Assembly: GCA_026003215.1 (NCBI GenBank)
Contig: BPGV01000001.1
Location: 1,951,729-2,015,728 of the forward strand
DNA length: 64,000 nucleotides
Reading direction: 5' to 3'
Source of the DNA: Bacteroidia bacterium
Lineage (GTDB): Bacteria > Bacteroidota > Bacteroidia > SpSt-205
Shown here: in pieces, positions 441 through 50,789 of the stretch
Layout: the number at the start of each line of letters is the position of its first letter
Position numbering within the stretch: the stretch's first letter is position 1
Position numbers and translations under genes: made by a program
The notes under the pieces: model-generated
The model's input: only the letters and a program-made list of their open reading frames with translations
Database searches by the model: none
What the model was told of the DNA's origin: nothing

Positions 441-2230
441 CTATTTGCCAGGAGTGAGACAGAGCTTGGTGACAAAGACATCGTAGTTTCCATTATGCGA
501 TGTGTCGTAGGCGCCTGGGGTGGTGGGGAAGTCAGAGGAGCCTGTCCCGCCGGTGATGTAAGCGCAGCCGCTGCCATCTACAGCGATGGCGATGCCTTCA
601 TCTTTCTCCCTTCCCCCGAGGAAGGTAGAATAGAGGAGGGTGCTACCATCAGAGGAGAGCTTGGTGACAAAGGCGTTCCAGAATCCACCATTATGCGATG
701 AGTCGTAAGCGCCGGGGGTCGTGGGGAAATCGGTGGAGTCTGTGCTGCCGGTGATGTAAGCGCAGTCGCTCCCATCTATGGCGATGGCGGAGCCATGGTC
801 AAGCCTGCTTCCGCCGATGAGGGTGGAGTAGACGAGGTTATCGCCGTTGGGAGAGAGCTTGGTGACAAAGACATCGTCGCTTCCATTATGCGATGGGTCG
901 TAGGCGTTGGAGGTCGTGGGAAAGTCGGAGGATAATGTCGTGCCGGTGATATAAGCGCTACCGCTGGCATCTATGGCGATGGCGTAGCCCCCTTCAGCGC
1001 TACTACCGCCGAGGAAGGTGGAATAGAGGAGGGTGCTGCCATCGGGGGAGAGCTTGGTGACAAAGGCATCATGCGGGTAGGCCCCACCTCCATTATACGA
1101 TGTGTCGTAGGCGCCGGGGGTGGTGGGGAAGTCGGGGGAATATGTGGAGCCGGTGATGTAAGCGTAGCCGCTGGCATCTACGGCGATGGCGTAGCCCACA
1201 TCCGCCTGAATACCGCCGAGGAAGGTAGAATAGATGAGCGCATTGCCAGTGGGGGAGAGCTTGGTAACAAAGGCATCGTAGGGGCCATAGGAGGGGCCTC
1301 CACTGTGCGATAGGTCGTAGGCGCCGGGGGTGGTGGGGAAGTTGAGGGATTCTGTCCAGCCGGTGATGTAAGCGCAGCCGCTGGCATCTATGGCGATGGC
1401 TTGGGCCCCCTCCCCATTCCCACCGCCGAGGAAGGTGGAATAGATGAGCGCATTGCCAGTGGGGGAGAGCTTGGTAACAAAGGCATCAACTCCACTAAAT
1501 GATTGGTCGTAGGCGCTTGGGGTCGTGGGGAAATCGGTGGAGCCTGTCCCGCCGGTGATGTAAGCGTAGCCGCTGGCATCTACGGCGATGGCTTTGCCCA
1601 CATCCCCATGACTACCGCCGAGGAAGGTGGAATAGATGAGCGCATTGCCATCGGGGGAGAGCTTGGTGACAAAAACATCGGTGTGTCCGTTATGCGATGT
1701 GTCATAGGCGCCGGTGGTGGTGGGGAAGTCGGGGGATTTTGTCCAGCCTGTGATGTAAGCGCAGCCGCTGGCATCTACGGCGATGGCGGAGCCCCTATCG
1801 TCCCCACTTCCGCCAAGGAAGGTAGAATAGACGAGGGCATCGCCGCCAGGGGAGAGCTTGGTGACAAAGGCGTCTTCCCCTCCCCCATTATACGATGGGT
1901 CGTAGGCGCCGGGGGTGGTGGGGAAGTCGGGGGATTTTGTCACGCCTGTGATGTAAGCGCAGCCGCTGGCATCTACGACGATGGCGTGACCCTGATCCAG
2001 ATTACTACCGCCGAGGAAGGTGGAATAGACGAGGGTGCGCCCATCAGGGGAGAGCTTGATGACAAAGGCGTCCCAGGCTCCCCCATTATACGATGGGTCG
2101 TAGGCGCCGGGGGTGGTGGGGAAGTCGGGGGATTTTGTCCAGCCGGTGATGTAAGCGCAGCCGCTGGCATCTACGGCGATGTCGTAGACCTCATCCGTAT
2201 TCCTAACGCCGAGGAAAGTACTCCACACGA
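441..2230 (-). repeat. Nine tandem coding repeats of about 192-211 bp
   Basis: The motif GATGTAAGCG (+ strand) or a close variant recurs near 554, 753, 948, 1154, 1365, 1557, 1752, 1950 and 2148. Each unit encodes one SBBP repeat. The units are similar at DNA level, so recombination between them could change the copy number. Confidence 0.85.
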
Positions 2231-2999
2231 GCGGGTCTATGATGAGAGGCTGGGTGGGGTCATAGGCGCCTACGGCAATGCGGTAGGTGCTCCCCTCCGC
2301 TAAAAAACGGCTCTCCACGGGGTGCCCGCCCTGATAGGCATAGAGCTTGGTCAGCACCGCCTCGCCAAACCGCGTGCGGAAGGCCAAGGTCTGCCCTTCC
2401 TTTACATACACGGCCTCGGCGCCTTCCATGGAGAAACGGATCTGACTGGGGTCAGCCCCCGGCTGGACGATGAAGTCGAAGCGCGGCTGGCCGCCGTCAA
2501 AGTAGTACCGGAAGTCAATCCCGGGATAGACGTCCGAGAGGCGCACCTCAGCAAAGCGGGGCACATGGGCGGCATGACGGCTCGGGTCGTTGCCGATGAA
2601 ATAGTTGAAGAAGCCCGGCAGCTGGTGTAGGCCGGCAGGCTCAGCGTGGATGTTGGCGCCGAGGAGGCACAGGCGCACGACATGACCGTAGCGCACTTGG
2701 GGCTGGTGGTCTCGGCCGAGCTTGTCAGGCAGCGGTTCAGGGACTGGGAAGGCCTCAGGTACCTGGGGCTCCTGGTCTTTGAATTGAAAGAAATCCAGGA
2801 CGAGACCGTCTCTCGCGATCCAACAGTCGATGCCGCCGAGGCGAGCGAGGAAGAGGGCGTCCGGGTGCCACTGGCCTCGGTTTGGGATGAAGGCGAGGGC
2901 TTGGGATTTTTCTACCATTTTCTGCGTGGCGAGGCTTTGGGCCTCAAGCCAAAGACCTCCTACAAGGAAGGTTCCGATGAATAATTTTTGAAGCCTCAT
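441..2999 (-). CDS. Secreted SBBP-type beta-propeller repeat protein
   Basis: 852 residues from ATG 2999, chosen because TACCTTCG ends 8 nt upstream and a signal peptide follows directly (MRLQKLFIGTFLVGGLWLEAQ). Residues about 25-270 form a conserved N-terminal domain (FIPNRGQW, QVRYG, FNYFIGNDPS, VYPGIDF) typical of large Bacteroidota SBBP proteins. Residues about 270-850 are nine tandem repeats of about 66 residues with the signature AYITG..SPDFPTTPGAYD....G..DAFVTKLSPDG..LVYSTFLGG, a beta-propeller repeat (SBBP). No T9SS C-terminal domain is visible before the TAG stop, which is odd for such a protein. In frame after the TAG is a further 31-codon open stretch. Likely extracellular or outer-membrane-associated; substrate unknown. 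Confidence 0.85.
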   Translation of the reverse strand: MRLQKLFIGTFLVGGLWLEAQSLATQKMVEKSQALAFIPNRGQWHPDALFLARLGGIDCWIARDGLVLDFFQFKDQEPQVPEAFPVPEPLPDKLGRDHQPQVRYGHVVRLCLLGANIHAEPAGLHQLPGFFNYFIGNDPSRHAAHVPRFAEVRLSDVYPGIDFRYYFDGGQPRFDFIVQPGADPSQIRFSMEGAEAVYVKEGQTLAFRTRFGEAVLTKLYAYQGGHPVESRFLAEGSTYRIAVGAYDPTQPLIIDPLVWSTFLGVRNTDEVYDIAVDASGCAYITGWTKSPDFPTTPGAYDPSYNGGAWDAFVIKLSPDGRTLVYSTFLGGSNLDQGHAIVVDASGCAYITGVTKSPDFPTTPGAYDPSYNGGGEDAFVTKLSPGGDALVYSTFLGGSGDDRGSAIAVDASGCAYITGWTKSPDFPTTTGAYDTSHNGHTDVFVTKLSPDGNALIYSTFLGGSHGDVGKAIAVDASGYAYITGGTGSTDFPTTPSAYDQSFSGVDAFVTKLSPTGNALIYSTFLGGGNGEGAQAIAIDASGCAYITGWTESLNFPTTPGAYDLSHSGGPSYGPYDAFVTKLSPTGNALIYSTFLGGIQADVGYAIAVDASGYAYITGSTYSPDFPTTPGAYDTSYNGGGAYPHDAFVTKLSPDGSTLLYSTFLGGSSAEGGYAIAIDASGSAYITGTTLSSDFPTTSNAYDPSHNGSDDVFVTKLSPNGDNLVYSTLIGGSRLDHGSAIAIDGSDCAYITGSTDSTDFPTTPGAYDSSHNGGFWNAFVTKLSSDGSTLLYSTFLGGREKDEGIAIAVDGSGCAYITGGTGSSDFPTTPGAYDTSHNGNYDVFVTKLCLTPGK

Positions 3000-3007
3000 A
3001 GTGAGAA

Positions 3008-3015
3008 CGAAGGTA
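3008..3015 (-). promoter_or_regulatory. -7 element TACCTTCG for the propeller gene
   Basis: One mismatch from TAnnTTTG. It ends 8 nt before ATG 2999 and supports that start over upstream in-frame codons. Confidence 0.55.
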
Positions 3016-3047
3016 GGAGTTTTGCGCAAAAATCCAGCAAGAGAGGC

Positions 3048-3055
3048 TATCTTTG
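3048..3055 (+). promoter_or_regulatory. -7 element TATCTTTG for the lipoprotein gene
   Basis: Exact TAnnTTTG match ending 4 nt before ATG 3060, so the transcript should be leaderless or nearly so. Confidence 0.7.
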
Positions 3056-3059
3056 TGGC

Positions 3060-3629
3060 ATGTATAGGCTTTGGGTAGGGGTGAGTGTGCTTGTGTGGGC
3101 AGGGTGTCGGTCGGGGGGAGGGGTGGAGGCACTGCCGGCGGGCATAGCTGCACAAGCCAAAAGCAAAGACCCCTGTAAGGCGCTGCGGGAGGCGCTTCCC
3201 CCGCTAATGCCGCCTTTTCAGGTGCCCACAGGCCAATCTATTCCCGAGCCCTTCCCCATAGAAGCGCAAAACTGGCTCAAAAAGCGCTTCTCCGAGGTAG
3301 GGGTCTATACGCCAGTGGGCTGTTGGCGCGGGCCCGCCCCGCTGGAACTCTGGCTGATAGAAAGGCTTACCGCAGAAGGTACTTTTTACTATGCGGTACT
3401 GGTGGATTCCCTATGCGAGGTGCAGGATACGGCCCTCTGGGCCTATCAGTGGGTGCAGCCGGACCGGCTGGAGCAAGGGCGCGCCGAGGTAGATCGTTCG
3501 GGCACCTGCACTATCACCATAGAGAAGCATATTACCACCTTTGCGGGGGAGCAGCCGCAGACCACCACCACGACGGAACGGCGAGCCTATGCGGTGGATT
3601 GGACTGGTCGCAAGCTGCGCCCTTTATAG
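3060..3629 (+). CDS. Hypothetical lipoprotein
   Basis: 189 residues. The N-terminus MYRLWVGVSVLVWAGC is a lipoprotein signal with lipobox VWAGC, so the mature protein should be lipid-anchored from Cys16. The rest has no family I recognise: a Pro-rich stretch near 50-65, two further Cys (near 93 and 123), and a Thr-rich segment near 165 (QTTTTTERR). The start is set by TATCTTTG 4 nt upstream. The 3' end overlaps the next gene by 41 nt in another frame, suggesting translational coupling. Function unknown; envelope location is the only supported statement. Confidence 0.75.
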   Translation: MYRLWVGVSVLVWAGCRSGGGVEALPAGIAAQAKSKDPCKALREALPPLMPPFQVPTGQSIPEPFPIEAQNWLKKRFSEVGVYTPVGCWRGPAPLELWLIERLTAEGTFYYAVLVDSLCEVQDTALWAYQWVQPDRLEQGRAEVDRSGTCTITIEKHITTFAGEQPQTTTTTERRAYAVDWTGRKLRPL

Positions 3630-10567: not shown

Positions 10568-10724
10568 TGAGAAATACCCTGGTGCTTAGTGCTTCTACGG
10601 CTCAGGAGAAGCGGGCTACCTCCCAGACGGTATTTTGAACCTTTCAGGTGGAAAATGCGACGACTCGGGCGCAGTGTTCGTCTTTTTGCTTAAGAAGGGG
10701 CTTGGGAGATACAGGCTTGCCATA

Positions 10725-10732
10725 TACCTTTG
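10725..10732 (+). promoter_or_regulatory. -7 element TACCTTTG for the giant surface protein gene
   Basis: Exact TAnnTTTG ending 4 nt before ATG 10737. This decides the start over an in-frame upstream codon at 10635. Confidence 0.7.
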
Positions 10733-10736
10733 CTTC

Positions 10737-13700
10737 ATGCGAGGCTTAAAACTACTGGGCTTGCTGCTGGGGCTGGAGGTAGGCCTCTCATCGCTGTATG
10801 CTACGCACCTTATGGGGGGTGAGATTACCTACCAGTGCATCGGCCCTAATCAATATCGCATACGCGTAAAACTCTACCGCGACTGTGGAGGTATAGCATT
10901 GGAAAATCCTATTATTCTCTACTATTCTTCTGCGCAATGTAATGTAAATGCCTCTATTTCGTTGAACCGTCTCAGCGTTACAGACATTACCCCGGTGTGT
11001 CCGGGGGGGCAAAGTCGGTGTGGTGGTAGTGGCCCCTATGGCTGGGAAGAGCATGTCTATGAAGGTACGCTTACCCTGCCGCCCGGATGCTCGGACTGGA
11101 CTCTTTGGTATAGCAACTGTTGTAGAAATAGCGCTATCACCACCGGGCCGGCGGATGACTACTTTACCATTTATACCAACCTTAATAACACCGTAACCCC
11201 CTGCAATAACTCCCCCGTGTTCAATGTGCCGCCTACGGCTTTGGCGTGTGTGGGGCAGAGGACATGCCTCAATCCGGGGGTTACGGACCCCGATGGCGAC
11301 TCCTTGGCTTTTAGCTTGACCTATTGCCGGTCCTCTAATGCTTCCACCAGTGTAGGCTACTCGGGGGGATACAGCGGGACTAATCCGCTCCCTACCGGGG
11401 GAGGGACTACAGTGGACCCCCGAACAGGTACGGTATGCTTTACGCCCAGCGCGCAGGCGGTGGGTATTATTTGCATTCGGATAGAGGAGTTTCGGAATGG
11501 CGTAAAGATTGGCGAGTACCTGCGAGACATGCAGGTACGGGTCATTGCGTGCTCTAACCAGCTTCCGGTCGCTTCTGGGATAAATGGCGTGCCGTATAAT
11601 CCCAATGACCCTACTACCTATACCATAGAAGTCTGCGCCACCGGTACCAACTACTGTTTCAACTTGAACTTTTCCGACCCGGATGGTCAGCCGCTCACCG
11701 TCTCATGGAATAACGGTATCTCTGGGGCTTCCTTTGTGGTCAACAATAATGGGACCACTAATCCTACCGCTACTTTCTGCTGGACCCCTACCCCTGCGGA
11801 TATAGGTTCGCATACTTTTGTTGTCACGGTACAAGATAATGCTTGTCCTATCCGAGGGGTCAATAGCTATGGCTATGTGGTGAATGTAATCGGAGGGGTT
11901 TCGTATCCGGTGGATGCGGGTCCGGATGCGACTATTTGTCAGGGACAATCCGTTACTTTGAATGGTTCTGTGGCGGGGCCCCCAGGCGATATTGCCAGTA
12001 TCCAATGGTCTCCCGCGACAGGACTTAGTAATCCCAATATTTTGACGCCGGTGGCTTCGCCCACCTCTACGACGACCTATACGTTGGAAGTGACTTTTGT
12101 GGGGGGCTGCAAGCGCCGAGACCAAGTGACCGTGACGGTATTGCCGCCGCCGGCGCCGCCGACGGTTTCCCCGCCTTCGGCCCAAGTATGTACAGGTAGT
12201 AGCGTTTTACTTACAGCTTCCAGTCCAGGAGCCGTAGATTATGAGTGGCATGATGGCGCACCGAATGGGCCTATTGTGCAGAATGGGCCTACTTTTAATG
12301 CTTCGCCAGGAAGTAGTACGACCTATTATGTGGTAGCGGTGAGTGCGAATGGCTGCCGGTCGGCGCCGACGCCTGTGTCCGTAGCGGTCAATCCGCCGCC
12401 CCCGCCTGTTTCCTGTGTGGTCATCTATGTGACGCCGGGCGGCTGTGGCGGCGGTCCCGGCTGCGGTACCCGCGCAAACCCCGCCAATCTCCCCACCGCT
12501 ATCGCCATGGCCCAGTGTAATAACAGCTACCTCAAGCTGGCCTGCGGTACCTACAACATCGATAATTCAATCTCTTTTACCAGCAATACGACGGTGGAGG
12601 GCGGCTATGACCCCGCCACCTGGGATAAGACCAACGGCTGCCAGACCATCATCTACCGCACCCCAGCCAACGTCCAGCCCAACCCTAACCGACTCGTGGC
12701 TATAGAGCTAAACTCGGTGCGGTACTTCGCCATGTATGATGTGACGGTGCAGACCGCCGATGCGCCTAATCCCCCTATTGCCGGCGATTATCGGGGGGTC
12801 TCTACCTATGCCCTCTACATGGCGGGATGTCAAGATTATAAGTTTGTGCGGTGTGGGTTTATCTCAGGGAATGCTTCTAAGGGAGCCGACGGCCAACCAG
12901 GAAACCCCGGCCGAAATGCCGCCGCTTATCAGAATGGTCCTTTCTGCGGCCAATCAGGCGATCAAGATAACTGCGGCTGGGCAAATGGAAATGGCGGGGC
13001 GGGTGCTACTGTGCCTTGGGGAGCTAACGGCGGAAATGGCGGTAATGGCGGATATGACGGAGGATCAGGGAATAGTGGTCAACAAGCGCCCTGTGGCGGT
13101 AATGTCGTGTGTTCTGGAGGGGGAGGAGGGACTGGAGGAGGTGGCTGTGGTTCAGGCTTCGGTTGCGACTGTGATGGCGCTGGCAATCATGGTCAGCCGG
13201 GGCAAAATGGAGGAAATGGTAATCCTGGAGCGACTGGAACAGCCGGTTCGTCAGGAACAGCGGGAGTTTGGTGGCAGCCAGGTGGACAGGGGGGTACAGG
13301 CGGACAGGGACAGCATGGTAGAGGTGGTGGCGGGGGTGGTGGCGGCGGCGGACAATCAAATTTGATATGTGGTTGGCGTGGAACGGGAGCCGGAGGGGGT
13401 GGGGGGGGAGCTGGAGGAGAAGGCGGGTATGGTGGCACTGGTGGCTGGGGCGGTGGCAGCAGCTTCCCCATCTACCTCTACCAAAATGGTGGGGGCAGCC
13501 AGTTTATAGATTGTGGGTATAGTACGGGGGCGGCTGGGGCCGGAGGCATAGGCGGAGTGGGTGGGGCAGGAGGAGCAGGTAGCTTAGGAGCTGGACAAGG
13601 AGGCAGTCCCACAAGCTGCCCGCGGGACGGCTGTGATATAGGCTATGGGGGGCGAGGCGGCAATGGCGGCAATGGCGGCAGTGGCGGCAGTGGTGGCAAT

Positions 13701-16700
13701 GGCCAGTCCGGCATAGCTTATGCACTCTACGTGGTCAGCGGTACGCTGCCTTCAGTGGTCGTCGGAGGCACCCCCATCGCCATAGCGTTGGGCGGCAATA
13801 ACCCTACGCCCTACAACTTCGCGGCTGAGCCGATTATCCGCGTCTCTGGGTTTGCTTGCACCAATAAAGATTACACTCTCCAGGTCACCACTGGCGGCTT
13901 CAATCAGTGGACCTCGCTGGGGCCAGGCGCTACCGCCACCGTGCCGAATACGAATAACCCCATTACGTACCAATATACCACCGTTGGCCGCAAGACCATC
14001 GTCGTGCGGGTAGGGGGGGTGGATTATACCTTCACGGAGTTTATCGGGATACTACTGCCTGATAACCAGCGCCCGAACGTGACCGCTAATCCGGTCGGGC
14101 CTATCTGTCAGGGAGAAGTAGCTACTTTCACCGGGGACTTAGCGGGGGTTCAATACCAGTGGGAACAGTATCCTCCCGCTGGCCCGGTGGTAAATGGCCC
14201 TAATGCGCAAAGCTGGCAAATAGCCTTTACGCAGCCAGGCATCCATACCATTCGTCATCGGGTATATACCGACTGCTGTGGATGGACCCCGTGGGATTCT
14301 GTGACGATGGAGGTGTACCCGCAGGCGACAGTGAGTGTGGCCCCTGCTGCCCCGGCTATTTGCTATGGCGATCAGGTCACGCTCACCGCTACTTTTGCGC
14401 CGGCGGGTTCTACTATCTTATGGTCGCCAGCGAATGGCCTGAATACCACCACGGGCGCGACGGTGGTAGCTTCCCCGACCAGTACGACGACCTATACAGC
14501 GCTGGTGGTGCCTCCCGTGGGCTCGTGTGTGGCCACAGCGAATGTCACCGTCACGGTGAATCCGCTCCCAGACGCCACAGCAGCGGTGACTCCTGCGAGC
14601 TGCGGCAATAACGGGAGTGTTACCCTCACTATCACCGCCGGGGCCCCTCCAGTAAATGTAGTCTGGAATACCACTCCCCCTCAAACCGGCCTCACAGCCA
14701 CCAACCTTCAGCCGGGCATTTATCAGGCTACCCTCACGGATGCTAACGGCTGCGTAAATACCGTATCTGTATTTGTGCCTGCGCCGCCGGGAGCGCTTTT
14801 AGCCTGGCTGCAATCCTCCCAAGAGCCTTCCTGCTTTGGCCAAAGTAACGGTTCGGCGACCATAGGCGTGACAGGCGGAACGCCGCCATACACCTATACT
14901 TGGTCGCATAACCCCGCCCTCAACGCCCCCACAGCTACGGGGCTCAGTGCCGGTAGTTATACGGTGGTAGTCACGGATGGCGCGGGATGTACTTTTACGG
15001 TGCCCTTTGCCTTAGGGCAGCCTGCGCCGCTCACCATAGCGCTGGACTCGCTCCGCCAAAATGAACCCGTAAGCTGCTCCGGCGCGTGTAATGGCGTCAT
15101 TACCGTGGAGGCCGACGGAGGGACGCAGCCACGGACCTATACATGGAGTAGCTCTACCTATCCGGGTTTTTCCTTTTCGGGGGTAGATGCGGCAGGTACC
15201 CAGGTGACCGGCCTTTGCGAGGGCGAATACACTATCACTGTCACGGACGCAAATGGGTGTACAGCGTCTATTACGGTGCAGCTGGGGGTTACCCCACTCA
15301 ACTACACTTTGAGCAAAACCGATGCGCTCTGCTATGGAGCTCCGCAAGGGTCTGTATCCGTCACTATCATCACTGCGCATTCGGGCACGAGCTGGGTATG
15401 GACGGGGCCCCTTGGCTACACTTCTGCGCCTAATGAAACCAATCCCACAAACCTTGTGCCGGGATGGTATTATATTCACTTCACTATCCCTGGATGCCCG
15501 GGGACAGTCACGGACTCCATATATGTGGACTCTCCGCCTGATATAACACTCTCTGTCACCCATACGGAACCGCTCTGCAATGGTGACGCCAATGGTTCCA
15601 TCACCGTCGTAGCGAGTGGGGGGGTAGGCGGCTTCCAATACAATATCAACGGTGGGCCATGGGGCGCAGCTAATACCTTCACGGGCCTGACTGCGGGTAC
15701 CTATACCCTCGGCGTACAGGATGCTAACGGATGCCAGAAGTATGTAACTTATGTGCTCCCTGAACCGGCGGCTTTGGCCCTGGATCCACCTACAGTGACA
15801 AATGTGCGGTGTAATGGGGGTTCAGATGGGAGCATAACGGTGAATGTAGTGGCGGGTAGCGGTACAGCGCCATATGAGTATAGTTTGAACGGCGGGCCGT
15901 ATCAGTCTTCGGCCACCTTTACGGGGTTGAGTGCTGGGAGTTACACGGTGACGGTACGGGATGCGAATGGGTGTACGATAAGTCAGACTGTGACGGTGGG
16001 TCAGCCTACGGCGTTGGCGTTGAATGCGCCTACGGTGGTGGATGTTCGCTGCAATGGGGGGTCGGATGGGAGTATAACGGTGAATGTAGTGGCTGGTAGC
16101 GGTACGGCGCCGTACGAGTATAGTTTGAACGGCGGACCGTATCAAGCGTCGGCTACCTTTACAGGCCTGAGTGCGGGAAGTTATACGGTGACGGTACGGG
16201 ATGCGAATGGGTGTACGATAAGCCAGACAGTGACGGTGGGGCAGCCAGCGACGGCATTAGCGTTAGATCCGCCTACGGTGGTGGATGTTCGCTGCAATGG
16301 GGGCTCGGATGGGAGCATAACGGTGAATGTGGTGGCTGGTAGCGGCACGGCGCCGTACGAGTATAGTTTGAACGGCGGGCCGTATCAAGCATCGCCAACC
16401 TTTACGGGGTTGAGTGCGGGAAGTTATACGGTGACGGTACGGGATGCGAATGGTTGTACGATAAGTCAGGTAGTGACGGTGGGTCAGCCTACGGCGTTGG
16501 CGTTGAATGCGCCTACGGTGGTGGATGTTCGCTGCAATGGGGGCTCGGATGGGAGCATAACGGTGAATGTGGTGGCTGGTAGCGGCACGGCGCCGTATGA
16601 GTATAGTTTGAACGGGGGGCCGTACCAAGCATCGCCAACCTTTACGGGGTTGAGTGCGGGAAGTTATACGGTGACGGTACGGGATGCGAATGGTTGTACG

Positions 16701-18215
16701 ATAAGTCAGGTAGTGACGGTGGGTCAGCCTACGGCGTTGGCGTTGAATGCGCCTACGGTGGTGGATGTTCGCTGCAATGGGGGTTCGGATGGGAGCATAA
16801 CGGTGAATGTGGTAGCTGGTAGTGGTACGGCTCCGTATGAGTATAGTTTGAATGGCGGGCCGTATCAAGCGTCGGCTACCTTTACGGGGTTGAGTGCTGG
16901 GAGTTACACGGTGACGGTACGGGATGCGAATGGTTGTACGATAAGCCAGACTGTGACGGTTGGTCAGCCGGCGGCGCCGGTGAGTTTTACTTTCACGGTG
17001 ACGAATGCCCCGTGCTATGGAGGTCTTGGTACGATAGTGTTTTCTGCGAGTGGGGGGGTAGGTGGATATGAATATGGAGTGGATGGGGTGTATGGGTCTA
17101 ATGCGACGGTGTCTGTGCCGGCGGGTACTTATGTGCTAACGGTGCGAGATGCGAATGGATGTGTAGCGGGTGCGCAGACGGCGGTGGTAGGGCAACCGCA
17201 ACCTGTGGTAGGGAGTGTGGCGAGTTTGACGGTGGCGACGTGTCGGGAGTCGTCGGATGGGGGTGTGGTGCTTACGGCGCAGGGGGGTACGAGTGCGAGT
17301 GGGAGCTATACTTATGTGTGGGTGAGTCATCCGCAGTACAGTGGGGCGAATGTGAGTGGTTTAGCGCCGGGGTCGTATGAGGTGGTGGTGCGTGACGATA
17401 ATGGGTGTGAGGACACGATACGGTTTAGTGTGCCGTATCGGAGCTATGTGGATGCGGCGTTGCAGCCGGTGGATGTGAGTGGGTGTGTGCCGCTTGGGGG
17501 TAGTTGGGTAGCGCTACCGAGTGGGGTAGGCCCGTACAGCTATGAGTGGGATATGGGGGATGGGACGGTGGTAAGGGATTCGGTGGTGGAGCATGTGTAT
17601 GCGATGCAGGGGAGTTACAGCATTCGGTTGATAGTTCGGAATGGGGATGGGTGTGCGGATACGGCGTATGGGGTAGCGCAGGCGTACTTTACGCCGGTGG
17701 CGAGCTATACGATAGATCCGGATACGAGTGTGGATAGGGTAGTAGGGACGGTATTTACGCTGACGAGCACGACGCAGAATGCGCAGCGGGTATGGTGGGG
17801 TATAGAAGGGTATGGGGTGCATGAGGGGCCGGTATGGCAGGTGCGTTTTGATAGGCCTGGGCGGTATTGTTTCAAGGTGTGGGCGCAGAATGGGAGTTGT
17901 GTAGATTCGGCGAGTGGGTGTATAGAGGTGAAGGACCCGTATGTGTATTTACCGAATGCGTTTTCGCCGAATGGGGATGGGGTGAATGATGTATTTGAGA
18001 TAAAGGCGTTTGGGCTGAAGGAGCCGCGGGTGCGGATATATGATCGGTGGGGTGTGCTGGTGTTTGATAATGGGGGGGACATGAGTCGGCACTGGGATGG
18101 GACTTATCGGGGTTCTCCTGTGCCGGAGGATGCGTACACGGTGGTGATAGAAGGGAAGCTCCCGCCCTTTGATAAGCCTATAAAACGCAGTGGGACTGTC
18201 ACGGTCGTCCGATAA
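10737..18215 (+). CDS. Giant T9SS surface protein: beta-helix with Gly-rich inserts, SprB-type repeats, CHU_C tail
   Basis: 2492 residues from ATG 10737. Signal peptide about 1-22, then the ATHLMGGEITYQCIG opening common to Bacteroidota giant surface proteins. Order: N-terminal domain with cadherin-like DPDGDSLAF segment (to about 390); two Ig-like modules (about 390-555); a right-handed beta-helix-like region (about 560-1010) interrupted by two Gly-rich inserts; more Ig-like modules; SprB-type repeats (about 1280-2080) ending in five near-identical 80-residue units; a PKD-like module (YEWDMGDGTV); and the CHU_C C-terminal domain (NAFSPNGDGVND, VRIYDRWG, WDGTYRG). The C-terminal domain should direct secretion by the type IX system, with surface display like SprB adhesins. 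Base composition changes sharply near 15790. Confidence 0.92.
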   Translation: MRGLKLLGLLLGLEVGLSSLYATHLMGGEITYQCIGPNQYRIRVKLYRDCGGIALENPIILYYSSAQCNVNASISLNRLSVTDITPVCPGGQSRCGGSGPYGWEEHVYEGTLTLPPGCSDWTLWYSNCCRNSAITTGPADDYFTIYTNLNNTVTPCNNSPVFNVPPTALACVGQRTCLNPGVTDPDGDSLAFSLTYCRSSNASTSVGYSGGYSGTNPLPTGGGTTVDPRTGTVCFTPSAQAVGIICIRIEEFRNGVKIGEYLRDMQVRVIACSNQLPVASGINGVPYNPNDPTTYTIEVCATGTNYCFNLNFSDPDGQPLTVSWNNGISGASFVVNNNGTTNPTATFCWTPTPADIGSHTFVVTVQDNACPIRGVNSYGYVVNVIGGVSYPVDAGPDATICQGQSVTLNGSVAGPPGDIASIQWSPATGLSNPNILTPVASPTSTTTYTLEVTFVGGCKRRDQVTVTVLPPPAPPTVSPPSAQVCTGSSVLLTASSPGAVDYEWHDGAPNGPIVQNGPTFNASPGSSTTYYVVAVSANGCRSAPTPVSVAVNPPPPPVSCVVIYVTPGGCGGGPGCGTRANPANLPTAIAMAQCNNSYLKLACGTYNIDNSISFTSNTTVEGGYDPATWDKTNGCQTIIYRTPANVQPNPNRLVAIELNSVRYFAMYDVTVQTADAPNPPIAGDYRGVSTYALYMAGCQDYKFVRCGFISGNASKGADGQPGNPGRNAAAYQNGPFCGQSGDQDNCGWANGNGGAGATVPWGANGGNGGNGGYDGGSGNSGQQAPCGGNVVCSGGGGGTGGGGCGSGFGCDCDGAGNHGQPGQNGGNGNPGATGTAGSSGTAGVWWQPGGQGGTGGQGQHGRGGGGGGGGGGQSNLICGWRGTGAGGGGGGAGGEGGYGGTGGWGGGSSFPIYLYQNGGGSQFIDCGYSTGAAGAGGIGGVGGAGGAGSLGAGQGGSPTSCPRDGCDIGYGGRGGNGGNGGSGGSGGNGQSGIAYALYVVSGTLPSVVVGGTPIAIALGGNNPTPYNFAAEPIIRVSGFACTNKDYTLQVTTGGFNQWTSLGPGATATVPNTNNPITYQYTTVGRKTIVVRVGGVDYTFTEFIGILLPDNQRPNVTANPVGPICQGEVATFTGDLAGVQYQWEQYPPAGPVVNGPNAQSWQIAFTQPGIHTIRHRVYTDCCGWTPWDSVTMEVYPQATVSVAPAAPAICYGDQVTLTATFAPAGSTILWSPANGLNTTTGATVVASPTSTTTYTALVVPPVGSCVATANVTVTVNPLPDATAAVTPASCGNNGSVTLTITAGAPPVNVVWNTTPPQTGLTATNLQPGIYQATLTDANGCVNTVSVFVPAPPGALLAWLQSSQEPSCFGQSNGSATIGVTGGTPPYTYTWSHNPALNAPTATGLSAGSYTVVVTDGAGCTFTVPFALGQPAPLTIALDSLRQNEPVSCSGACNGVITVEADGGTQPRTYTWSSSTYPGFSFSGVDAAGTQVTGLCEGEYTITVTDANGCTASITVQLGVTPLNYTLSKTDALCYGAPQGSVSVTIITAHSGTSWVWTGPLGYTSAPNETNPTNLVPGWYYIHFTIPGCPGTVTDSIYVDSPPDITLSVTHTEPLCNGDANGSITVVASGGVGGFQYNINGGPWGAANTFTGLTAGTYTLGVQDANGCQKYVTYVLPEPAALALDPPTVTNVRCNGGSDGSITVNVVAGSGTAPYEYSLNGGPYQSSATFTGLSAGSYTVTVRDANGCTISQTVTVGQPTALALNAPTVVDVRCNGGSDGSITVNVVAGSGTAPYEYSLNGGPYQASATFTGLSAGSYTVTVRDANGCTISQTVTVGQPATALALDPPTVVDVRCNGGSDGSITVNVVAGSGTAPYEYSLNGGPYQASPTFTGLSAGSYTVTVRDANGCTISQVVTVGQPTALALNAPTVVDVRCNGGSDGSITVNVVAGSGTAPYEYSLNGGPYQASPTFTGLSAGSYTVTVRDANGCTISQVVTVGQPTALALNAPTVVDVRCNGGSDGSITVNVVAGSGTAPYEYSLNGGPYQASATFTGLSAGSYTVTVRDANGCTISQTVTVGQPAAPVSFTFTVTNAPCYGGLGTIVFSASGGVGGYEYGVDGVYGSNATVSVPAGTYVLTVRDANGCVAGAQTAVVGQPQPVVGSVASLTVATCRESSDGGVVLTAQGGTSASGSYTYVWVSHPQYSGANVSGLAPGSYEVVVRDDNGCEDTIRFSVPYRSYVDAALQPVDVSGCVPLGGSWVALPSGVGPYSYEWDMGDGTVVRDSVVEHVYAMQGSYSIRLIVRNGDGCADTAYGVAQAYFTPVASYTIDPDTSVDRVVGTVFTLTSTTQNAQRVWWGIEGYGVHEGPVWQVRFDRPGRYCFKVWAQNGSCVDSASGCIEVKDPYVYLPNAFSPNGDGVNDVFEIKAFGLKEPRVRIYDRWGVLVFDNGGDMSRHWDGTYRGSPVPEDAYTVVIEGKLPPFDKPIKRSGTVTVVR
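12880..13710 (+). repeat. Glycine-rich low-complexity coding region (GGN/GGS/GGA)
   Basis: About 275 codons in two blocks (roughly 12880-13460 and 13515-13700), separated by a beta-helix-like rung (FPIYLYQNGGG, FIDCGY). Glycine exceeds half of the residues, often in triplets GGN, GGS or GGA, as in polyglycine-II bundles or PE_PGRS proteins. The long G-runs make this region prone to slippage and assembly error. Confidence 0.85.
15780..16980 (+). repeat. Five tandem 240-bp SprB-type repeats
   Basis: The segment CCTACGGTGGTGGATG or its variant recurs near 15789, 16029, 16272, 16512 and 16752, giving spacings of 240, 243, 240 and 240. Each unit encodes 80 residues (RCNGGSDGSITVNVV, GPYQASATFTGLSAGSYT, VTVRDANGCTISQ). 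Units 3 and 4 are almost identical at DNA level, so recent duplication or conversion is likely. Confidence 0.92.
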
Positions 18216-18250
18216 TGTGTTATGGATAGGGACCGCCGGTCTGGCGGTTA

Positions 18251-47462: not shown

Positions 47463-48415
47463 GAGAGTTCTGTACGAAGGATATAGTGGTGTTTTTGGGG
47501 CGATTGCCGCAGGAGCAGTTCGCCTAAGAAGCCGGCCAAAAAGAGCTGTACGCCTATTATGGCTACCATGAGGCCTATGTAAAAGAGGGGCTGCTCCACC
47601 ACCTCGCGGCGTACCTGCCCATAGTGGTGTAGCTGGTATAACTTATCGCTGATAAGCCACGTGACGATAAGGATGCCCACCAGAATGGCAAGGACGCCCA
47701 ACCCACCAAAAAAATGCATGGGCCTTCGGCCAAACCGCACCAAGAAACTTACGGTAACGAGGTCTAAAAACCCGTACAGGAACCTTTCCCAGCCAAACTT
47801 AGTGTGGCCGTACTTGCGGGGGTAATGGGTGACCACTTTTTCGGTGATGCGGCGGAAACCTGCAGCTTGGACGAGGTAGGGAATATACCGGTGCATTTCG
47901 CCATAAAGGTCTATGGCTTTGGCGACTTCGGCGCGATAGGCTTTGATACCGCTATTGAAATCGTGTAGCGGTATGCCCGTGAAGAGCCGTACGACCGTAT
48001 TGAAAATGCGGCTGGGCAAGGTCTTGGAGAGCGGGTCTTTGCGGTGTTTTTTCCAGCCGCTGACTAAGTCGTAGCCTTTCTCGGCGATGAGGGCATAAAG
48101 CGCAGGGATTTCATCGGGGGAATCTTGCAGGTCTGCATCCAAGGTGATGATGACTTCGCCTTGGGCTTTTTGGAAGCCTACATGGAGGGCGGCAGACTTG
48201 CCGTAGTTTCGGGCAAAGCGAATAGCTTTAAGGTAAGGGGCATGTTGGGCATGGAGAGCCTCTAAGGTAGCCCAAGTGGAATCGGTACTGCCGTCATCTA
48301 TCACGATGATTTCATAGGACGGGAAGCGCGGATCACATACCCGACGAATCCACGCGAGGAGTTCTGGCAGGGATTCGGCTTCGTTGTAGGCGGGGATGAC
48401 GAGGGAAAGCTGCAC
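47459..48415 (-). CDS. Family 2 glycosyltransferase with two C-terminal membrane helices
   Basis: 318 residues from GTG 48415, overlapping the stop of the previous gene (TAGTG). GT-A motifs LVIPAYNEAESLPELL, VIDDGSTDST and DADLQDSPDEI. Two membrane helices near 232-255 and 268-292. Resembles undecaprenyl- or dolichyl-phosphate sugar transferases of the DPM1/ArnC/GtrB type. Likely makes a lipid-linked sugar for surface glycans. Part of the run FG-GAP protein, GT2, VWA, GldB. Confidence 0.9.
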   Translation of the reverse strand: MQLSLVIPAYNEAESLPELLAWIRRVCDPRFPSYEIIVIDDGSTDSTWATLEALHAQHAPYLKAIRFARNYGKSAALHVGFQKAQGEVIITLDADLQDSPDEIPALYALIAEKGYDLVSGWKKHRKDPLSKTLPSRIFNTVVRLFTGIPLHDFNSGIKAYRAEVAKAIDLYGEMHRYIPYLVQAAGFRRITEKVVTHYPRKYGHTKFGWERFLYGFLDLVTVSFLVRFGRRPMHFFGGLGVLAILVGILIVTWLISDKLYQLHHYGQVRREVVEQPLFYIGLMVAIIGVQLFLAGFLGELLLRQSPQKHHYILRTELS

Positions 48416-50739
48416 TATATGCCGAGGATTTTGAGTTCGGTGCGGCGATTTTTTTGCTTATTTTCGGGGGTGTCGTTCGGGGCGACGGGGCGGCTTTCGC
48501 CGTACCCGCGAGCTGTGAGGCGGCTGGCGTCTATCCCGCGAGAGATAAGATAATCCACCACCGACTGTGCTCGCGCTTGCGAAAGACGCAGGTTATACGC
48601 GTCCGAACCGTCACTGTCGGTATGTCCAGAGATTTCCACGCGTAAAGTGGGATTTTCTTGCAGAAACTTGACCACGCGCTCCAGTTCTTCTATGGATTCG
48701 GGGCGGAGGGTAGCTTTGTCATAGTCAAAGTAGATATTGCGGAGGACGATAGCTTTTTCGGTTTCCACGGGGCTCAGGAGGAAGTTTCGTTTGAGGCCGC
48801 CTTCGGGGATGTCTACGGAGTCGCGGTAGGGGAAAAACCCTTTGTGGATGATTTCTACTTGGTAGAAGCCTGCGGGGAGACAGCCCTTGAAGGCACCGTT
48901 ATTTTGGCTGGTGACTCGTCGGCGCACTCCCTGGCGGTCAATCAGATAAATAGTTACCTCTCGTATGGGCGCTTGGGTATTTTGGTTGAGTACCAAGCCT
49001 TCTATGCAGGTGCGGGAGGGGGCTGCGGCGGATAGCGCCAGGTCTATGCGCTGGCCCTGGGGATAGTGCTCACGCCCTAAGGAGAAGACTTGCCATGAAG
49101 GGTCATACCCTGAGGCTTCGGCTTGGATGCGGTGATTTAGGCCTAAGGGGATTTGGGCTTCATAATACCCTCGGGCATCGGTATAAACCTCGCCGAGATT
49201 TTCTCCGGCTTGGGAGGAGAGGCGTACCAGGGCGCGGGAAATGGGCGTCTTTTTAGCGGCATCCGTGACATAACCCCATACTTTGAGCCGTTGGATACGC
49301 CGTAGCACGATATCCCGATGAATACCTTCTTTCAAAATGGAGTCGGGGATTTGTTTGAGGGGCGGAATGACGATGCGTATTTCTTCGGAGGGGTAGTCGG
49401 GGGCGGTGCCCTTGAGGAGGAGGATGTGGCGGCCACCGGTGACTTCAAAGCGAAAAGGCTTACCCGGCGTGTAACGCTGTACTTGAAAAGCTTCTTCTCG
49501 GCCGCCTACACGTTCCAGGGCCGTGGTGTCTATAAGCGAGACATTGCCGGGGATCTCTTGGCTTGTCTCTCCATCTATGAGTCGCCCTTGGATAGCTATT
49601 AGTATGGGCTTAGGCGGGGTGACGGGGACATTCCGATGGACATTGATAGCGTGGTCATGCACTGAGGTGGTAATAAAATCCACGTTATCGTCGCCATTTA
49701 CATCGGCTAGGGTGAGCGAAATAGGCCATTGGCCGGTGCCGATGCGGTGGCGGTCAGACAGGTGACCTTTGCCGTCATTCAGATGCACATTGATTACATG
49801 GTCTCGGGCTGAGACGGTAACCACATCTAAGTCGCCATCTTTATCAAAGTCCCCTAAGTAGAGTGCGAAGTTGTAGTTGCCGGAGGGTTGGACGCGGGCT
49901 TCTTCCCACCGCCCGAACCCCGCATTCAGGAAAGTAGCGATGGAGCTACCCGTGTAAGTACCGATGACAATATCAGGGCGCTTGTCTCCGTTGAGGTCGC
50001 CCACGTCTAAGCCCCAGATGGAGGGCGGAGCGCTCAGTCGTTGTCCTTCGCCGGTGTAGCCGTTTTTGCCATAGAAAATTAGCAAGAAGGGCTCTTCTCC
50101 CCCTACGATGATATCGGCTTTACCGTCTCTATCTACATCAGTGGCGGTGGCGGTGCGGGGACGATTAGGGGCTTTCAGGATTTTATAGGGTTGGAGGGTG
50201 CCTCCGGCGGTAGTACGCAGGAGGTGCACGGTTTGGTCATCGTAACACACCACGCCTACATCTGGGCGGCTGTCCCCATCCCAGTCCGCCGTACATAAGT
50301 GGTGAGGCCCTTTCCCTACGGGCAAGGTGCCGGTGAGGTCCAGTTGGCCTCGGCCTTTATTCAGATGCCAAGCGACTTTGCCTTCAGCGTAGGAAGTGAC
50401 CACGATGTCCATTTGCTGGTCGCCATTTAGGTCTATGGCGAGGGGTTTCCAGGTTTCTTTGAGGCTGGAGAAAGCCCAGTTTCGGGGAAACTCCGCATTC
50501 CGGTTATTGAGATAAAGGGCAATCTTTCCTTCGGAGCGGCAGGCTACTACGATATCCTCCCACTGGTCGCCGTTGAAATCCGCTACCGCCGTACCCCACG
50601 GATTTGTACAAGTCGCTATGGGGTAGTTGGGTAAAAACACTTGTCCAGAGATGAAAATGGTACTATCCTTACCCGAACGATTGAGAAGCTGTGCTTGCAG
50701 GAGCCCCCACACCCCCATCCCCAGGAGAATCCGAAACAT
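48415..50739 (-). CDS. FG-GAP propeller, regulatory-like and OmpA-domain protein
   Basis: 774 residues from ATG 50739. Signal peptide MFRILLGMGVWGLLQAQ. FG-GAP/VCBS propeller to about 365 (repeats like ADFNGDQWEDIVVACRSEG and GDFDKDGDLDVV). Two or three CarboxypepD_reg-like modules (about 380-655). C-terminal OmpA domain (NIYFDYDKATLRPESIEEL, ISGHTDSDGSDAYNLRLSQ) binds peptidoglycan. Layout resembles PorE of the type IX system but without its TPR part and with a different propeller. First gene of a four-gene run ending with gldB. Confidence 0.9.
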   Translation of the reverse strand: MFRILLGMGVWGLLQAQLLNRSGKDSTIFISGQVFLPNYPIATCTNPWGTAVADFNGDQWEDIVVACRSEGKIALYLNNRNAEFPRNWAFSSLKETWKPLAIDLNGDQQMDIVVTSYAEGKVAWHLNKGRGQLDLTGTLPVGKGPHHLCTADWDGDSRPDVGVVCYDDQTVHLLRTTAGGTLQPYKILKAPNRPRTATATDVDRDGKADIIVGGEEPFLLIFYGKNGYTGEGQRLSAPPSIWGLDVGDLNGDKRPDIVIGTYTGSSIATFLNAGFGRWEEARVQPSGNYNFALYLGDFDKDGDLDVVTVSARDHVINVHLNDGKGHLSDRHRIGTGQWPISLTLADVNGDDNVDFITTSVHDHAINVHRNVPVTPPKPILIAIQGRLIDGETSQEIPGNVSLIDTTALERVGGREEAFQVQRYTPGKPFRFEVTGGRHILLLKGTAPDYPSEEIRIVIPPLKQIPDSILKEGIHRDIVLRRIQRLKVWGYVTDAAKKTPISRALVRLSSQAGENLGEVYTDARGYYEAQIPLGLNHRIQAEASGYDPSWQVFSLGREHYPQGQRIDLALSAAAPSRTCIEGLVLNQNTQAPIREVTIYLIDRQGVRRRVTSQNNGAFKGCLPAGFYQVEIIHKGFFPYRDSVDIPEGGLKRNFLLSPVETEKAIVLRNIYFDYDKATLRPESIEELERVVKFLQENPTLRVEISGHTDSDGSDAYNLRLSQARAQSVVDYLISRGIDASRLTARGYGESRPVAPNDTPENKQKNRRTELKILGI

Positions 50740-50743
50740 GGCC

Positions 50744-50751
50744 CAAAAATA
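50744..50751 (-). promoter_or_regulatory. -7 element TATTTTTG for the FG-GAP-OmpA operon
   Basis: Exact TAnnTTTG ending 4 nt before ATG 50739. Confidence 0.65.
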
Positions 50752-50789
50752 CAGCATTAGGGGCTTGTATCATTCCCAAAAAACTTTTG

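Follow-up and report, generated by a model that had tools for sequence, protein, structure and literature searches.

In Lyme disease Borrelia, vls cassettes are copied between surface-protein genes and have an average GC skew of 0.52, according to PMC11499132. As a rule, leading strands are enriched in G and T (PMC10030826). Strand bias is usually seen as a slow genome-wide background. Here, we describe strand bias that is extreme within parts of genes and whose edges, in two bacterial families, coincide with those of DNA shared between genes. The literature searched, at the level of listed records, yielded no account of hyper-skew within genes or of 3'-module copying for type IX cargo genes or SprB-like adhesins, and there is a real chance that the process behind the hyper-skewed shared blocks is undescribed.

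Composition of the 3' third of gene W

The window is a stretch of 64,000 nucleotides (positions 1951729 to 2015728) of the genome of a Bacteroidia bacterium, designated G000, which consists of a single contig of 2.27 Mb. From its predicted domains, gene W of the window is a gene for a large cell-surface protein of the type IX secretion kind. The features of W, in window coordinates, are the following.

10635 to 18215, plus strand: gene W, 2526 codons, with Ig-like, PKD and SprB domains and a C-terminal CHU_C type IX secretion signal (Pfam matches of the translation)
10635 to 15781, plus strand: unskewed 5' two thirds of W, with C at 346 of 1061 four-fold sites
15769 to 18178, plus strand: stretch common to W and gene D (see below), 95.3% DNA identity over 2410 aligned bases, ending about 11 codons before the W stop
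15782 to 18155, plus strand: hyper-skewed block of W, with C at 21 of 469 four-fold sites
15783 to 16973, plus strand: tandem SprB repeats, five near-identical units of about 240 bp each, four-fold C of 0.06 to 0.10
16974 to 18155, plus strand: unique part of the block, comprising SprB-like modules, the PKD domain and most of CHU_C, four-fold C of 0.00 to 0.02
17526 to 17660, plus strand: PKD domain (residues 2298 to 2342; Pfam)
17949 to 18152, plus strand: CHU_C type IX secretion signal domain (residues 2439 to 2506; Pfam)
18179 to 18215, plus strand: tail of W, neither shared nor skewed

A likelier start of translation than position 10635 is the methionine codon at 10737, which is followed by a hydrophobic stretch. 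The CHU_C domain scored 55.4 bits against a curated Pfam cut-off of 27, and the SprB repeats (PF13573) were matched in 8 stretches with 289 bits, making W an SprB-like adhesin by sequence.

The GC skew of W, in windows of 300 bases, ranged from -0.2 to +0.15 until about position 15700, except at 12850 to 13749, then from +0.24 to +0.58 in the windows covering 15700 to 18249, and was +0.11 and lower in the windows that follow. In the exceptional region at 12850 to 13749, a Gly-rich part of W, the skew of up to +0.5 stems from positions 1 and 2 of glycine codons and not from third positions. The best two-step fit to the 1542 four-fold sites of the gene placed the borders of the block at 15782 and 18155, with C regained at 6 of the 12 sites thereafter. 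The gain in log-likelihood was 89; shuffling the sites within codon boxes, repeated 100 times, never gave more than 12.7. Inside the block, codons ending in a pyrimidine shifted to T, codons ending in a purine shifted to G, Ile codons shifted to ATA and four-fold sites mostly ended at G. The original prediction, namely a sharp change of composition inside one gene with a return to normal at its end, is thus confirmed, although its estimate of G as near half of the bases was slightly high: in most windows G amounts to about 38 to 44% and C to 13 to 20%, as calculated from skew and GC content. The change was also expected to be stepwise rather than gradual. The step is sharp, but the block has two internal levels of C, lower in the unique part than in the repeats (windows of 100 codons), and because of these two levels a cubic logistic trend fitted slightly better than a single flat step (-751.6 versus -755.6).

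Copying of the block between genes

A search of the rest of the genome for a paralogue of the 3' third, as the original prediction proposed, revealed gene D, located on the minus strand of G000 at 593.6 to 603.7 kb, about 1.37 Mb from W on the contig. The N-terminal part of D contains a DUF11 domain, and BLASTP detected no match in D for the first ~1260 residues of W. Since a block shared at 95% identity is combined with dissimilar N-terminal halves, copying between genes is real. The downstream border of the shared stretch is sharp, with 19 differences between W and D in positions 16974 to 18176 followed by 16 differences in 18179 to 18214. The two skew borders are located 13 and 23 bp, respectively, inside the shared stretch. 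In D, the skew begins only where its own repeats start, at about 598.5 kb, so that this gene has the same internal step as W. The repeat array of D (locus L045) contains two frame changes at 596.5 to 597.2 kb, leaving open frames of 2205, 195 and 969 codons, which may reflect an assembly error or decay.

The 3' third of W is homologous in sister species, with 61 to 73% amino acid identity among five species and 49 to 53% for a further one (G004). Since the orthologues have it, the 3' third belongs to W. One of these species, G009, also contains a counterpart of D, identified by downstream synteny; its two copies are only 65% identical in amino acid sequence, have not been homogenized and have unskewed unique 3' parts. 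A tree grouping D of G000 with its G009 counterpart alone was rejected (p = 2e-6), indicating that the homogenization of W and D in G000 postdates their separation into distinct genes. The tree that unites W, D and the G009 counterpart of D in one clade fell 6.7 log units below the free tree (p = 0.078), and the fork of W and D was the only one with good support in the tree of the 3' parts. This comparison favors W as the donor to D but does not prove it; D as the donor was disfavored by the same test.

These results bear on the origin of the 3' third, which had been proposed to be acquired or converted from another gene. Conversion is borne out by the near-identical block of D. The notion of an outside source fared less well: D has the same step, the orthologues carry a homologous 3' third and the tree appears to favor W as the donor, so that, as judged from these sequences, a foreign donor is not what the skew marks. 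Import of the 3' third from an organism of different codon usage, whether by gene conversion or by transfer, would explain the sharp borders at both ends and the shared copy elsewhere in the genome. We nevertheless regard it as quite improbable, since the orthologues of W in G005, G007, G009 and G010 have a 3' third with 66 to 72% amino acid identity to that of W, skewed in some of these species and unskewed in others, and since another hyper-skewed gene, P3, has an orthologue of opposite bias in G007 (see below).

A second case was found in a genome of another family of the class (G047), in which a CHU_C gene has a skew profile like that of W and a second copy is carried by a contig of 4 kb. 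In their N-terminal parts, the two paralogues agree at 441 of 808 residues (55%); the proteins are then identical over 371 of 371 residues and the DNA over 1115 bp. One copy becomes poor in C after position 2918, and its identity to the other begins at 2922. In the second copy, the corresponding positions are 8266 and 8281, with C at 141 of 413 sites, then at 10 of 200 (to 9511) and finally at 9 of 19. Thus, identity begins within 16 bp of the start of the skew. Among the 7 CHU_C loci of this genome, the two with the shared block are G-skewed and the other five are not (overall -0.47 to +0.01).

Generality was examined in a sample of 28 CHU_C-type loci, drawn from a larger number of hits, 18 from the genus and 10 from other families. 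Windows beyond +/-0.85 occurred in five of them, namely, the W orthologues of G005, G007, G009 and G010 (4 of the 18 loci of the genus) and the G047 gene (1 of the 10 from other families). A second strong match to the skewed W of G007 was not found in the genome of that species, which is 81% complete. Elsewhere in G007 (contig C6, 134223 to 136541), the counterpart of the window gene at 48415 to 50757 is in pieces, one of which contains three in-frame stops.

Hyper-skewed segments and the replication strand

The frequency of hyper-skew in G000 was determined with windows of 100 codons in 20 evenly spaced stretches totaling 398 kb, the leading and lagging strands being assigned from the skew of the stretches themselves rather than from a mapped origin. 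Values above +0.6 were obtained for 7 of 555 leading-strand windows and for 0 of 521 lagging-strand windows, and values below -0.6 for 3 and 67 windows, respectively. We also surveyed 47 type IX cargo loci, 18 with CHU_C and 29 with Por_Secre_tail, 9 of the latter being under the curated cut-off. Four of the 47 (P2, W, D and P3) constitute an extreme cluster of their own at +0.77 to +0.94, the next value being +0.27, whereas lagging-side loci form a continuum down to -0.69 with no separate group. P3 (1770153 to 1774308) carries CHU_C. P2 (603879 to 607011) adjoins D; its product is a beta-helix protein whose match to a secretion tail does not reach the cut-off. Hyper-skew is thus present in 3 of the 18 CHU_C genes of G000, W included, and is not a general property of genes of this type. 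A lagging-strand gene of the window with repeated STFLGG modules (441 to 3155, minus strand) has strongly C-rich third positions (four-fold C of 0.61 and G of 0.14).

The four hyper-skewed segments are all coded by the leading strand, although only three are independent, since W and D share theirs. Their codon shifts follow the axis separating leading- from lagging-strand genes of G000, with correlation coefficients of 0.67 for the W repeats, 0.77 for the unique part of W, 0.86 for P3 and 0.87 for P2, and slopes of 2.45 to 3.4. For comparison, ordinary leading-strand genes average 0.44 (77 genes; standard deviation, 0.36; maximum, 1.46) and lagging-strand genes -0.44 (76 genes), so that the hyper-skewed segments lie 5.6 to 7.7 times as far along the axis as the average leading gene. 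The leading-strand skew of intergenic DNA in G000 is just 0.063, and ordinary replication mutation is therefore too weak. Strand-specific mutation, the second explanation offered by the original prediction, is supported as to the direction of the change. The change is nevertheless local and greatly exceeds the genome-wide bias, no asymmetry of similar magnitude being found genome-wide, intergenic DNA included.

Orthologues coded by the other strand provided one clear and one weaker flip of the bias. In G007, the 3' third of W, coded by the leading strand, is rich in G, with a slope of +2.15 (average of 0.55 and maximum of 1.42 for 16 leading genes). By contrast, the P3 orthologue of this species is coded by the lagging strand and rich in C, with a slope of -1.19 (-1.52 for its 3' half) compared to an average of -0.37 (standard deviation, 0.27) for 13 lagging genes; the strand call was based on 4 of 7 sampled stretches of one contig, including that of P3, two flat stretches and one of opposite sign being dropped. 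In G010, the W repeats have four-fold C of 0.43 to 0.65 and G of 0.00, and the weaker evidence of this contig suggests that W is probably on the lagging strand. The W repeats of G009 are G-rich, and the six sampled genes of the contig all run the same way as W. W of G005 is also G-rich, on a contig that gives no clear leading or lagging call. Thus, the sign of the skew seems to follow the replication strand and not the coding strand.

In P3, the bias extends to the amino acid sequence. The orthologues of G000 and G007 are 50% identical over 1293 aligned residues, and the differing positions show an excess of V (+94), G (+62), R (+31) and E (+26) and a deficit of T (-56), P (-52) and L (-50) in G000. 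At the differing codons, G occupies position 1 in 304 versus 149 cases and C occupies position 2 in 84 versus 238 cases. A bias was likewise observed at the 14 sites of the unique part of W that are derived in G000, with 14 gains and 3 losses of residues of the GVREWMDK group and 0 gains and 8 losses of the PTLHQAS group. In P2, the corresponding figures were 42 gains and 23 losses for GVREWMDK and 28 gains and 38 losses for PTLHQAS. The W proteins of G007 and G005, though encoded by skewed genes, displayed no such shift (GVREWMDK gains and losses of 16 and 13 and of 6 and 5, respectively).

The apparent dependence on the replication strand makes it highly improbable that the skew results from codon choice for translation or mRNA structure, such as slow or unstructured coding of secreted repeats. 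Under that explanation, the change would be expected mostly at third positions, as is the case, but the sign goes with the replication strand rather than with the mRNA, as revealed by the C-rich lagging-strand orthologue of P3 in G007, and the first and second codon positions of P3 are shifted too. Transcription as the cause is likewise difficult to reconcile with this orthologue.

Alternatively, weakly constrained, fast-evolving surface genes could lie nearer to the equilibrium of the ordinary leading-strand bias than genes under codon selection. The direction of the skew along the leading/lagging axis of the genome agrees with this explanation, as does the divergence of P2 of G000, which is 0.56 to 0.59 identical to its relatives in three species that are themselves 0.68 to 0.71 alike. 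This gap, absent from two control genes, may be read as a rough doubling of the rate. We consider a neutral equilibrium unlikely, however, in view of the low intergenic skew, the split of leading cargo genes into two groups and the finding that, in two families, the intragenic step coincides with the boundary of shared DNA. Unlike in G000, relatives of P2 are present as several copies or pieces in the sister species G002 (contig C6) and G008 (contigs C18 and C60).

Recombination, replication and comparison with known systems

Extreme skew is found in copied DNA for W and D and for the G047 genes, but also in P2 and P3, which are hyper-skewed across their entire length and have no close copy in G000. 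A present copy is therefore not required, which weakens the link to recombination. In 634,586 sampled bases of G000, which include some overlap and some loci picked as cargo genes, repeats with a length of 300 bp or more and an identity of 85% or higher were limited to those of W and D and one within another type IX cargo gene, L076 (326137 to 328795, minus strand), which contains a duplicated 172-codon unit with 95% DNA identity. Skewed and normal segments alternate in L076; its C-terminal tag is skewed and its repeated part is partly skewed. With windows of 60 codons in a subset of the sampled stretches, hyper-skew was detected in 38 of 42 windows inside repeats and, outside them, in 40 of 1205 leading-strand windows, with P2 and P3 accounting for 28 of the 40; this comparison comprises two repeat families, and D, P2 and P3 had been included because of what they are. 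A search for a DNA motif common to the unique part of W, P3 and P2 returned weak best 6- to 8-mers with no common theme.

The main rival explanation is that the skew is the cause rather than the consequence of copying, a G-rich, C-poor strand being kept because it promotes recombination between copies through R-loops or G-quadruplexes or by facilitating strand invasion, the model put forward for Borrelia vls. The strength of the skew is comparable (windows of the W block against the vls average from PMC11499132), and it coincides with copying between genes for W and D and in G047. Selection of G-quadruplexes or G runs was nevertheless rejected: the raw G content is high, but the counts of GGG, G runs and G-quadruplex motifs did not exceed those of synonymous shuffles in the W repeats, the unique part of W, P3 or P2. 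In addition, the favored letter goes with the replication strand in the G007 orthologue of P3 and in the W repeats of G010, and P2 and P3 lack a partner. Selection for skew is therefore doubtful in our opinion.

The explanation that we favor, with somewhat less than an even chance of being correct, is that the skew was made by mutation or repair that is linked to recombination and polarized by replication, the 3' module of W acting as a recombining cassette. This module, composed of the SprB repeat array, PKD and CHU_C, would pass by copying from one gene to another whose N-terminal part is unrelated. At the replication fork, rounds of repeat expansion or copying would be accompanied by extra single-strand exposure and repair synthesis. 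After many such rounds, the leading-strand sequence would have lost C and A and gained G and T, with four-fold sites mostly ending at G. We infer both that the skew results from recombination, and not recombination from the skew, and that the chemistry is linked to the fork. Several observations run counter to this mechanism, among them P2 and P3, the skewed W of G007 with no second strong match found, the lack of an amino acid shift in W of G007 and G005, and the change of four-fold sites to G, where simple deamination of C would predict T. A broader version is more tentative and, as we see it, possible without being probable: in Bacteroidia, rewriting of this type would strip the leading-strand sequence of C (and A) in the repeat and secretion-tag modules of large type IX cargo genes. 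Codons and, for some genes, the encoded residues would thereby be altered as the modules move between genes that differ in their N-terminal parts.

If the recombination-linked explanation is correct, composition alone would flag recombining surface-gene cassettes, and the alternative between skew driving conversion, as proposed for vls, and conversion driving skew becomes testable in Bacteroidota. The rewriting process, if real, would be a route of bacterial diversification that takes its direction from the replication fork.

Similar to type IX cargo proteins and SprB-like adhesins, W combines SprB repeats, a PKD domain and CHU_C. The direction of its codon changes is that of replication-strand asymmetry, but the skew of the W type is local, exceeds the average of leading genes several-fold (the 5.6- to 7.7-fold range given above) and has sharp borders inside genes. 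As in the vls system (PMC11499132), the W block displays a local and extreme GC skew in DNA copied between surface-protein genes. Unlike vls, it does not belong to an array of silent cassettes next to one expression site, the copies in W and D being the 3' portions of two long genes that differ in their N-terminal parts. The W block also differs from vls in having no excess of G runs over that expected from codon usage and in having a skew whose sign goes with replication.
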